Shown here piece by piece: positions 13,350 through 33,367 of a DNA stretch of 33,367 bases. The position numbers and the translations under genes were made by a program. Under the pieces are notes generated by a model that made no database searches, was not told the DNA's origin, and saw only the letters and a list, made by a program, of their open reading frames with translations. Origin of the DNA: Thermoguttaceae bacterium (GTDB lineage Bacteria > Planctomycetota > Planctomycetia > Pirellulales > Thermoguttaceae); assembly GCA_017435375.1 (NCBI GenBank), contig JAFSFF010000522.1, forward strand, positions 1 through 33,367, written 5' to 3'. Position 1 is the stretch's first letter, and the number at the start of each line of letters is the position of its first letter.

Positions 13350-16004
13350 TTACGGTTTCTCCGTCGTTCCCGTTTCGCCCGACGGAGCCGCTTCTTGTTT
13401 CGGCGCGATTTTTTCCCAATCGAGGCCCAATTTTTCCGCGGTTTTTCGGAGCGCGGTTAAGTCGCAATTTACCGATTCCGCCGCTTTGCGCAACCGCGTC
13501 GTCGCTTCCTCGACGTTCGCTTCGACGCCGTCGCCGGTCGCGCAACATTCGGCGAAACGCAAAATCGCCGGAAGGTAATCCGCGTCCGCCGCTTGACGGA
13601 AGAATTTCGCCGCCGTCTCGGCGTTTTGCGCGACGCCTTCGCCGTTCGCATACCGCTCGGCCAAGATATAAAGCGTCGGCGCGTCGCCTTGTTCGGCGAG
13701 TTTCACAAACCCTTCGCACGCCTTTTTAAAATACTCTTCCGCTCGCGCCGCGTCTTCGCCGACGCCCAAACCGTCGCGATAACAGATCGCCAACACGTTT
13801 TGCGCCAAGGGATTACCGTCGTTCGCCGGATCCTCGGCCATATTGAACGCCCGCGCGACGCTCGCCTCGACGCCGTCGCCGCCCGTCAACAGAAGCGCCG
13901 CCAACTCGGCCTGCGCGTCGAGCGAGCCCAAGTCGACCGACTTCTCCAACGCTTCCGAAGCGGCCGCGCTATCGATTTTACGTCCGTCGAGCCCCAACGC
14001 CAACGCCCGTCCTTCGCGATAAAGCCGTTCGGCTTCGTTTTTATGCGCCGTTACTTGCGTCGTTCCGTCGACCTTCGCGGCTTCTTCGGCGTTACTTAAG
14101 GTCGCGCCGTCCGGAATCAACGCCAAGCGGCAACCGTTCGCGGCGAAACGTTTATTCGGGTCGAAATTAAATCGATTGCCGGAACGACAATATTTCGCGC
14201 GTCCGCGCCAACCGCCGCCTCGCAACGCGCGGTCGGTCCCTTCGGTCGCGCCGGTCGGGTCGACGACCGGGTCGCCGGAATAGGTTCCGAAAATATCCGC
14301 GCACCATTCCTCGACGTTGCCGTGCATGTCGTAAAAGCCCCAAGGGTTCTTCTCATAACTTCCCACGTTCGTCGGACGCCCCTGATAAGAATCAGCGTCC
14401 ATTTGATACGGATAGTTCACGCCGTCGCAGTTTGCTTTATCGCCGTTCAACGAATCGCCCCAGAAAAACGGCGTCGACGTTCCGGCGCGGCAGGCGTACT
14501 CCCACTGCGCTTCGGTCGGCAACGCGAACTTCCAGCCCTTCGGCGCGCAACCGGCCGCGTTTAATTTTTCGGCAAATTCGCAACAATCATACCAGTTGAC
14601 GCTGTCGACCGGAAAACTCGCGGTTACAAGGCCGCGCATATCTTGTCGCTTTTCGAGCGTAAACTCGCTCGGATTTTCCCCGACGACGGCGGTCCAAAGC
14701 TGTTGCGTCGTTTCGGTTTCCATTAACCAAAACCCTTGCGTCAACGTTACTTCGCGCTGCGTTTCGTACGGCGCGCAACGCTCCGGCTCGGTATCCGGCG
14801 TTCCCTGCGTAAAGGTTCCCGGCGGCGCCCAACAGAAGCCGACTTCGATATCGGCGATCGTCAGCGTCATTCGTTCGCCGGCGGCGCTCGCATGATCCCA
14901 GTCGCCCGACGCGTCGTTCCCTTCGGGGTTTATGATAAAAGGATCGTATGAAAACAACTTAAAATTCGTCGTATCGCTAATAAAATGCGGCTCTTGGGAA
15001 CCGTTCGTCGCTTTTTCGACCGCCTCCGACGTCTTATTAAGCGCTTCAAAGAGCCGCACGTTGCCGTCTTGATCCATGTCCCCCTTTTCGCTCAAACACC
15101 GAGCAAAATGATAGGTAAAAACGCCGTGTTTCAGTTCGTCATATTCGTAACTAAATTGTCCCGCGTCGCAACTTTGCAACAATACCGAGCCAGTCGGAGC
15201 GTTCAAACGCCCCAGGGCCGTCGCGCCGTCGGTCAAACCTCCGCGCCTACGTCCGTTCGTCGCCAAGAGCATTTCCTCGGACGCCGGTTCCAACTTTTCC
15301 CGACACGCGTCGACGACAATCCACTTAAAACGCGCTTCCGTCTCCGCCAAACGCTTGAACAGTCTCGAAAGCGAATAAGTCGCTTCAAAATCGACGACGC
15401 CCGCCGTTTTCGTCGTGTCGTAAGGAGCGAAACCGACGTACGGAGAGTAGCCGCCGAAATTATCCGTTTGAAAACCGTGTCCGGAAAAGAAGATAAAAAT
15501 CGCGTCGTCCGGCCCGGTCGCGTCGATCGCCTTCATCAATTCGCGCTCGATATTCGCAACATTCGGAATCAGATTCGTGTCGTCTTTCCCGGCTTCGGTT
15601 GTTATCGCAACAATATTTTCCTTTTGGAAACCAAGACAGTCTTCCAAACGCTCGCGAATCAGCTCAACGTCGGCACTCGCGTACTTTAGATCGTTAAAAT
15701 GAAGATAATGATCGACGCCGATCAAAACCGCGCGGTCGACGGGCGGCGCCGGTTCTTTTGCATTTTCGCCGTTTTCCCGCGCTTGTTCGCTCGCTTGGCT
15801 CGCCTTCGCCGCTTCCGCCGTTTGCTCAGCTTCCGTCGTTTGACTCGCTTCCGCCGTCGCCGCCGGTTGGTCGAGCGCGTTTTCCGCCGTCGGTCGCACG
15901 CGTCCGAAACGAACGCAAAACATCGCCAACGCCGCGATTACCGCGCAAATCGCGATAACGTCGCCAATTCTCCAAGGTAGGCGACGTAAATTTTTCTCGG
16001 TCAT
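13350..16004 (-). CDS. Membrane-anchored caspase-like peptidase fused to SUMF1/FGE-like domain and Sel1 repeats
   Basis: The 884-residue protein has one N-terminal membrane span (residues 13-33) and an Ala/Glu/Gln/Thr-rich linker (40-87). A caspase-like (peptidase C14) domain spans about 90-350, with catalytic His176 in FFSGHG and Cys234 in VVDACRE. A SUMF1/formylglycine-generating-enzyme-like domain spans about 376-632 (LPTEAQWEYACRAG, GFYDMHGNVEEWCAD, RGGGWRG, GCRLAL). It retains only one cysteine (Cys606, AKYCRSGNR) where true FGE has two, so it is probably a binding domain. Three to four Sel1-like repeats follow (about 655-845: CYRDGLGVGED, RYANGEGVAQN, CCATGDGVEAN). The span orientation would place the enzyme parts outside the cytoplasmic membrane. 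Substrate is unknown; a signalling or cell-death protease is inference. Confidence 0.85.
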   Translation of the reverse strand: MTEKNLRRLPWRIGDVIAICAVIAALAMFCVRFGRVRPTAENALDQPAATAEASQTTEAEQTAEAAKASQASEQARENGENAKEPAPPVDRAVLIGVDHYLHFNDLKYASADVELIRERLEDCLGFQKENIVAITTEAGKDDTNLIPNVANIERELMKAIDATGPDDAIFIFFSGHGFQTDNFGGYSPYVGFAPYDTTKTAGVVDFEATYSLSRLFKRLAETEARFKWIVVDACREKLEPASEEMLLATNGRRRGGLTDGATALGRLNAPTGSVLLQSCDAGQFSYEYDELKHGVFTYHFARCLSEKGDMDQDGNVRLFEALNKTSEAVEKATNGSQEPHFISDTTNFKLFSYDPFIINPEGNDASGDWDHASAAGERMTLTIADIEVGFCWAPPGTFTQGTPDTEPERCAPYETQREVTLTQGFWLMETETTQQLWTAVVGENPSEFTLEKRQDMRGLVTASFPVDSVNWYDCCEFAEKLNAAGCAPKGWKFALPTEAQWEYACRAGTSTPFFWGDSLNGDKANCDGVNYPYQMDADSYQGRPTNVGSYEKNPWGFYDMHGNVEEWCADIFGTYSGDPVVDPTGATEGTDRALRGGGWRGRAKYCRSGNRFNFDPNKRFAANGCRLALIPDGATLSNAEEAAKVDGTTQVTAHKNEAERLYREGRALALGLDGRKIDSAAASEALEKSVDLGSLDAQAELAALLLTGGDGVEASVARAFNMAEDPANDGNPLAQNVLAICYRDGLGVGEDAARAEEYFKKACEGFVKLAEQGDAPTLYILAERYANGEGVAQNAETAAKFFRQAADADYLPAILRFAECCATGDGVEANVEEATTRLRKAAESVNCDLTALRKTAEKLGLDWEKIAPKQEAAPSGETGTTEKP

Positions 16005-31548: not shown

Positions 31549-32262
31549 ATGACAAAAGACCGCGCGCTCCTTTTCGCCGTCGTCGGAGGAATCGGCTCCG
31601 GCAAAAGTTTCGCGACCGCGGCGCTCCGAGCGTTCGGCTTCCCCTGTTTCGACGCGGACGCCGAAGCCCGCCGCCTTTTCGACGATCCGGCGATTCTCGA
31701 CGTCCTTCGCGACCGTTGGGGCGCTTCGGTCGTCGCGCCGGACGGAATCGTCGACCGCCGCCGCTTGGCCGAAATCGTTTTCGCGCCGACCGCCGAAGCG
31801 CGAACCGAACTCGACTTTTTGAACCGAACGACGCGACCGCCACTGTTCGCCCGCTTTCGTCGTTGGCTCGACGCCGTTCGCGCCTCCGACGCCGAGTTCG
31901 CCGTTCTCGACGCGCCGCTTCTCTTCGAAGTCGGTTGGGAAAGCGACGTCGATTTCGTCATTTTCGTCGAAGCGTCCCGAGCGACTCGCGTCCGTCGCGT
32001 CGCCGAACGCGGTTGGTCGCCGGAGGAACTCGACCGTCGGGAGGCGAACCAACTTCCGCTCGACGTCAAACGGGCCCGCGCCGATTTCGTTCTCGTCAAC
32101 GACGCCGACGTCGAAAACGCCGTCAAAAACGGCAAAACCAATTCAAACGGCAAAAGCGAACAAGTCGCCGCTCCCGCCGAGCCCTTTTCCTCAAAGGACG
32201 CAACGTCGCCAATCGCCCGAATCGTCGAGGAAGCGCGACGCCGTCGCGACGCGCGGCTTTAA
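31549..32262 (+). CDS. coaE: Dephospho-CoA kinase
   Basis: The 237-residue enzyme performs the last step of coenzyme A synthesis, phosphorylating the 3'-hydroxyl of dephospho-CoA with ATP. The P-loop GGIGSGKS lies at residues 13-20, FDADAEARRLF near 34-44 carries the family Asp, and LDAPLLFEVG, RVRRVAERGWS and RREANQLPLDVKRARADFVLVND follow the CoaE order, with the C-terminal region extended by an Asn/Lys/Ser-rich insert (about 196-222). The ATG at 31549 is chosen because the conserved N-terminus begins there. No Shine-Dalgarno is present; an A/T-only stretch (TATATATTAATAATA) precedes it. The low-complexity frame follows 122 bases downstream. Confidence 0.9.
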   Translation: MTKDRALLFAVVGGIGSGKSFATAALRAFGFPCFDADAEARRLFDDPAILDVLRDRWGASVVAPDGIVDRRRLAEIVFAPTAEARTELDFLNRTTRPPLFARFRRWLDAVRASDAEFAVLDAPLLFEVGWESDVDFVIFVEASRATRVRRVAERGWSPEELDRREANQLPLDVKRARADFVLVNDADVENAVKNGKTNSNGKSEQVAAPAEPFSSKDATSPIARIVEEARRRRDARL

Positions 32263-32384: not shown

Positions 32385-32804
32385 ATGAATCGCAACGACG
32401 ACTCCTCTTCCCGCCCTCGTCCCCGCAAAACGGTCGACGAATTCCTCGACGAAATGGACGCTTGGGACAAAATCGCCGCCGGAATCGACGACGCCGAGTC
32501 CTTCGACTTCGACTCGAACGCCGAGTTCCCTTGGAGCGACCGCGCCAAAAAATCGAACGAAAATCCCGATCAAGCGTCGAACGTTCCCGAACCGTCGCAA
32601 AAACCGAGTCGACCCGGCGCCTACCTCGTCGATTACGACGACGCCGAGAAAATCGACGAAGATTACGAAACCCGCGTTAAACGCCGAGAAAAAAGCGTTT
32701 GGAATCGCGACGGAGCCCAGCGCGGAGACCGCCGCTTCGCTCCCGATTCCGCCTCCGAAGGCGGCGCTTATCGCGACGGGTATTACCGCGACCGCGACCG
32801 TTAG
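32385..32804 (+). CDS. Acidic low-complexity protein, N-terminal part up to an in-frame TAG
   Basis: The 139-residue frame begins at an ATG preceded by an A/T-rich leader without Shine-Dalgarno, like coaE. It is hydrophilic and apparently disordered: KTVDEFLDEMDAWDKIAAG and DDAESFDFDSNAEFPW, then a proline/serine part, LVDYDDAEKIDEDYETRV, and finally GAYRDGYYRDRDR. The last segment is the start of a Tyr-Arg-Asp-Gly-rich repeat that continues in the same frame beyond the TAG. I do not recognise a family. Position after coaE and the disordered basic continuation recall the N-terminal extensions of some Rho factors, but no Rho domain is within the window. Confidence 0.5.
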   Translation: MNRNDDSSSRPRPRKTVDEFLDEMDAWDKIAAGIDDAESFDFDSNAEFPWSDRAKKSNENPDQASNVPEPSQKPSRPGAYLVDYDDAEKIDEDYETRVKRREKSVWNRDGAQRGDRRFAPDSASEGGAYRDGYYRDRDR

Positions 32805-33240
32805 CGCGTTCCGTCCGAAAACGGCGACGAAGGCGACGGCGCGCGCCCCCGTTATTATCGACGGGACGAACGCGACGCTCGCGACGGCGGCGAACGATTC
32901 GACCGTCGCGACGGGCGCCGACCGCGCCAAGATTATCGCGATCGTTACCGTCGCGACAATTATCGCGAAAACGGTTATCGCAACGAAAACCGCGACGATT
33001 ACTCCGGCGCCGGTTATCGCGACGGAAACGAAAAAGAACGCTATTCCGCCGACGGACGCCGCCCTTATTATCGCGACGGCAACCGTCAAAACGGAAATTA
33101 TCGCGACGGCGGTTATCGCGAAAACGGTTATCGCGACGGAAATTACCAAAACGGCGGCTATCGTCGCCAACCGCGACGCGATTATCGGAATCCGAACGGC
33201 GATTATCGGCAAGACTACCGCCCGAATTACCGCGACAATT
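32772..33240 (+). repeat. Imperfect TATCGCGACGG-type coding repeats
   Basis: Short DNA units such as TATCGCGACGG and CGCGAAAACGGTTATCGC recur many times and encode the YRDG and RENGYR peptide units. Similar DNA copies make this stretch prone to slippage and to assembly errors. Confidence 0.65.
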
Positions 33241-33367
33241 ATCGACGCTTCGACGACGCCGGGCCCGGCTCCGACGGCGATTATTACTCGCCGCGCGGGC
33301 CTCGCCGCCGACGCGACTATTACGAGAACCTCGAACCGACCGTCGGCGCGCTCGGGAAACGGGGCGA
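32805..33367 (+). CDS. Continuation of the low-complexity frame beyond the TAG, open at the window edge
   Basis: The same frame stays open for 187 codons to the end of the window. It is rich in Arg, Tyr, Asp, Gly and Asn, with recurring YRDG, YRENGYR and NYRDN units (for example NYRENGYRNENR, then GGYRENGYRDGNYQNGGYR), and then leaves the repeat at DYYENLEPTVGALGKRG. There is no ATG, GTG or TTG codon in frame anywhere in this stretch, so it cannot be started independently by a usual start codon. It is most simply the same protein as the segment before the TAG, split by a nonsense mutation, a sequence error or a read-through stop. Confidence 0.55.

Follow-up and report, generated by a model that had tools for sequence, protein, structure and literature searches.

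The 33,367-nucleotide window analyzed here is an entire contig (C480) of a Thermoguttaceae metagenome-assembled genome (MAG; G000), and it closes with the 5' end of a rho gene that is interrupted by a single in-frame TAG. This TAG very probably has no adaptive role and stems either from faulty assembly or from a nonsense allele of recent origin. The MAG spans 4.0 Mb in 567 contigs, with 82.6% completeness and 4.8% contamination, and its species is represented by this one genome; the coaE gene that precedes rho finds matches in Thermoguttaceae MAGs of rectal origin (water deer and goat), and the source of the MAG is probably a ruminant gut. Because the window is the whole contig, the rho frame is truncated where the contig stops, which is not its biological end. 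The features on which the analysis rests are collected in Table 1.

Table 1. Features of the coaE-rho locus at the end of the window.
Feature	Position	Strand	Evidence
coaE (dephospho-CoA kinase), upstream neighbour	31549..32262	+	PF01121, 113 bits; conserved beside rho
rho 5' part: disordered R/D/G/N/Y-rich N-terminal region; contig end precedes the Rho core	32385..33367	+	Homology to Rho frames of relatives
In-frame TAG in place of a Tyr codon	32802..32804	+	Codon alignment: TAT in G001 and G007; of the G001 codon, only the last base (32804) differs
275-bp tract identical to species G001, beside the contig end	33084..33358	+	Exact match; cross-species assembly join or recombination

Re-reading of the frame opened by the ATG at 32385 agreed with an earlier sequence-only reading of this DNA, which had described a 139-codon frame ended by a single TAG and followed by 187 more open codons of the same composition without ATG, GTG or TTG. 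The TAG is codon 140 and the only stop among the 327 codons that run from 32385 to 33365; the R/D/G/N/Y composition is alike on both sides of it, and in-frame ATG, GTG, TTG, CTG, ATT, ATC and ATA codons are all absent from there to the contig end. When the bases following the TAG were shuffled, an open frame of such length was obtained in 0.2% of cases, and comparison with homologues shows that this stretch is coding. The earlier description of an open, low-complexity frame after coaE therefore stands as far as it went, but it recognized the frame neither as rho nor as truncated by the contig end.

By homology, the low-complexity frame is the predicted disordered N-terminal region of a Rho protein. 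It is homologous to the first ~327 residues of the full-length Rho frames in four relatives from the same genus (G001, G007, G008 and G006). In the relatives, coaE is followed by one long frame that comprises a similar N-terminus, an R/D/G/N/Y-rich stretch and, at its end, the Rho core. The G001 protein, whose N-terminus (MNRNDDASSRPRPRKTVDEFLDEMDAWDKIAAGIDD) is nearly identical to the start of the window frame, matches NCBIfam NF006886 with 451 bits over residues 375-790, carries PF07497 (101 bits) and PF00006, and aligns to solved Rho chains with an E-value of about 1e-110. The N-terminal stretch, biased to R/D/G/N/Y, is disordered by composition alone. The coaE gene is present in 17 of the 20 genus genomes, and a Rho frame adjoins it in the genus relatives read, as it does in the majority of the loci sampled from other genera. 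The ATPase half of rho in this genome lies for the most part on another contig, C110, where it is free of stops, contains the P-loop PPRAGKT and shares 87% identity with G001 over 296 residues; ~520 bp of rho are missing between C480 and C110, and the region corresponding to PF07497 falls within this gap. In a separate part of the window, the minus strand encodes an 884-residue protein (13350-16004) that joins a caspase-like peptidase (PF00656), a formylglycine-generating-enzyme-like domain (PF03781) and Sel1 repeats.

The coaE-linked Rho of 13 genus relatives is encoded by one uninterrupted frame of 599-890 codons, and in a fourteenth the frame stays open as far as the contig extends, with no stop within the frame in any of these 14; a pattern search found no Rho frame after coaE in G012 and G015. 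The sequence-only reading had proposed that orthologues be aligned to see whether the TAG position is a sense codon, and in both alignable close relatives, G001 and G007, it encodes Tyr (G008 and G006 present a small gap in this column of the codon alignment). The same reading had named an independent orthologue start after the TAG position as evidence against its view, and none was found directly 3' of it, the relatives having one frame. On these alignments, the TAG is a single Tyr (TAT)-to-stop substitution. A frameshift in its place was rejected, since the frame is the same on either side of the TAG and the relatives align without a shift, as was an independent downstream gene, since no start codon follows the TAG in the contig and the relatives have a single frame. 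Between this genome and G001, dN/dS is 0.29 before the TAG and 0.24 from the TAG to 33083, values similar to those obtained between uninterrupted relatives. A long-standing real stop should have relaxed the downstream part; since constraint there is unchanged, the stop would be very recent, rare in the population or false, and an old pseudogene was discarded on the same grounds. The conservation of the stop among orthologues by which recoding is recognized was not seen: constraint is present on both sides, but the stop occurs in no relative.

The two components of the preferred explanation were graded by judgement and not by computation. We give an even chance to an error of consensus or assembly in this repetitive and poorly assembled stretch close to the contig end, and somewhat less than an even chance to a nonsense allele that arose recently in the strain sampled. 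In favor of an error, the contig end, the 275-bp identical tract, the ~520-bp gap and a duplicate on C110 all break the same gene. The TAG and the contig end are 563 bp apart; identity to G001 is 84-92% just before 33084 and 100% across the tract, over which G007 and G008 show differences of 11-16%; and the first 79 bp of C110 are a misplaced duplicate of a sequence that occurs again 442 bp later. In favor of a real mutation, the bases flanking the TAG resemble native sequence of this genome, contig C565 encodes a second Rho in full, and the interrupted frame contains 31 Tyr codons, each one substitution away from a stop. A chimeric join exactly at the TAG was rejected, since the flanks are continuous with the relatives and the G001-identical tract begins 280 bp later. 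Exact G001 matches of 251-470 bp are also found in conserved genes of the window, and the rho genes of G007 and G008 (L024, L025) are almost identical to each other in the ATPase part (dS 0.025) but not in the RNA-binding part (dS 0.23), a mosaic pattern attributable to recombination or cross-assembly. Given this mosaic and the long exact matches in conserved window genes, natural between-species recombination of the coaE-linked rho is plausible. In the project that generated the named relatives, MEGAHIT was used both for individual assemblies and for co-assemblies (PMC8199421). Viral contigs were scanned for the same DNA, with no match. Elsewhere in the MAG, contigs C4 and C420 (L098, L100) carry the same tRNA-Val pair with the same 160-bp spacing and 98% identity over 269 bp, the result either of a true duplication or of strains mixed within the bin.

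If the TAG is real, translation would stop after 139 residues of disordered tail, the first restart candidate, judged from the relatives, would lie ~190 codons downstream, past the contig end, and Rho core would be produced at most in small amounts. The next in-frame start-like codon in the relatives is a TTG, 11-15 codons past the beginning of the GALGKRG motif with which C480 ends; two ATG codons come later, one within the N-terminal helical part of Rho (in 3 of 4) and one immediately ahead of the RNA-binding domain. The cell could tolerate such a nonsense allele thanks to its second, complete rho gene (L032:2504-4015, minus strand, on C565), whose product could buffer the loss of the coaE-linked Rho. 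The C565 gene is about 90% identical at the DNA level to the second rho of G001, which argues that C565 is not a stray contig of the G001 species.

Among the three options that the sequence-only reading had left for the TAG, error and recent nonsense mutation were thus both supported, whereas read-through fared poorly. Programmed or leaky read-through, yielding a short disordered peptide together with a long Rho, would preserve the downstream frame, and that frame is indeed conserved in this genome; its conservation, however, follows just as well from recency or error, the stop is absent from all relatives examined, the genome has a second rho that is complete, and neither a suppressor tRNA, for which that reading had suggested a check, nor PylS was found. 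The bases that follow the TAG (CGCGTT) are not known to contain an established read-through signal, and we regard read-through as very unlikely. A single in-frame TAG within a conserved gene could also be taken to mean that the codon has been reassigned to an amino acid in this organism, but the probability of this is negligible; the sequence-only reading had already called genome-wide reassignment unlikely, counting at least seven other window genes that end in TAG. The count is eight, several of them ending in TAG where the relatives use TAA or TGA; rho is the only window gene in which an interior TAG was seen in the comparison with G001 and G007; and no tRNA with a CUA anticodon (CTA) was detected among the 62 tRNAs found in this 82.6% complete genome. 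TAG is an ordinary terminator in this genome: genome-wide reassignment was rejected on the gene ends and the tRNA set, and pyrrolysine decoding was rejected because PylS was not found.

The high conservation of the first 50 residues of the coaE-linked Rho among close relatives would fit a 139-residue product that functions as a stand-alone gene, with the downstream frame separate or dying. Yet all relatives have this N-terminal part fused to the Rho core, the contig offers no start codon after the TAG, and the downstream part is still constrained, making a stand-alone gene highly improbable. Lower still is the credence given to a real TAG that is fixed in the species, with low-level read-through producing mostly free disordered tail and little full-length, possibly condensate-forming Rho; this we consider barely credible. 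One stop in one metagenome assembly is poor ground for inferring recoding, and assembly error or a recent nonsense allele remains the preferred reading.

The gene nevertheless merits attention for its disordered tail, for the presence of a second Rho and for the loss of the P-loop in related copies that maintain a constrained RNA-binding domain. Most of the 61 family genomes sampled have a pair of Rho genes whose PF07497 scores differ, at about 110-120 bits for one and about 40-60 bits for the other; both types match NCBIfam NF041509 ("Rho, short form") below its cut-off, and no paper on two Rho genes in Planctomycetota was found in the literature collection searched. The coaE-linked Rho copies of the genus form one group (support 100/100). 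Within it, the P-loop is kept in five members (G000, G001, G006, G007 and G008), and its GK[TS] motif is lost in 10 of the 14 genus relatives (L045-L050, L052, L056-L058), where sequences such as CPEREDEKT or APSCPEAQS are found in its place; PPRSGKT is retained by the other Rho at each of the 15 loci in which this part is covered. For the Rho copies lacking the P-loop, dN/dS is 0.01-0.14 in the RNA-binding domain and 0.12-0.19 in the former ATPase domain (three pairs, two of them near silent-site saturation). These values indicate that purifying selection acts on the P-loop-less Rho, most strongly on its RNA-binding domain, and point to a Rho paralogue that would keep RNA binding without the ATP-driven motor of Rho.

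Compared with known Rho proteins (NF006886, PF07497 and PF00006), the core of the relatives' proteins is Rho over its whole length, with both RNA-binding and ATPase domains, and the 3' half of this genome's gene on C110 retains the P-loop; one TAG interrupts the gene in this genome. Against TIGR00767, the coaE-linked Rho scores 446 bits, below the cut-off of 509 bits, and it bears an N-terminal extension of more than 300 residues that is absent from E. coli Rho. Disordered regions in Rho, including those of Planctomycetota, are already known: they have been counted in this phylum, and some Lachnospiraceae Rho proteins contain Y/Q/R/D-type repeats (PMC10284900). In Bacteroides thetaiotaomicron Rho, a disordered region drives the formation of condensates (PMC13269538). 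Like that protein, the coaE-linked Rho has a long low-complexity disordered stretch joined to a Rho core. The two stretches differ in composition, which is E/K- and Q/N-rich in parts in B. thetaiotaomicron and R/D/G/N/Y-rich here, and in position, since the insertion in B. thetaiotaomicron Rho is placed between the N-terminal helical part and the RNA-binding domain (PMC13269538, PMC10284900), whereas the stretch described here precedes the helical part.
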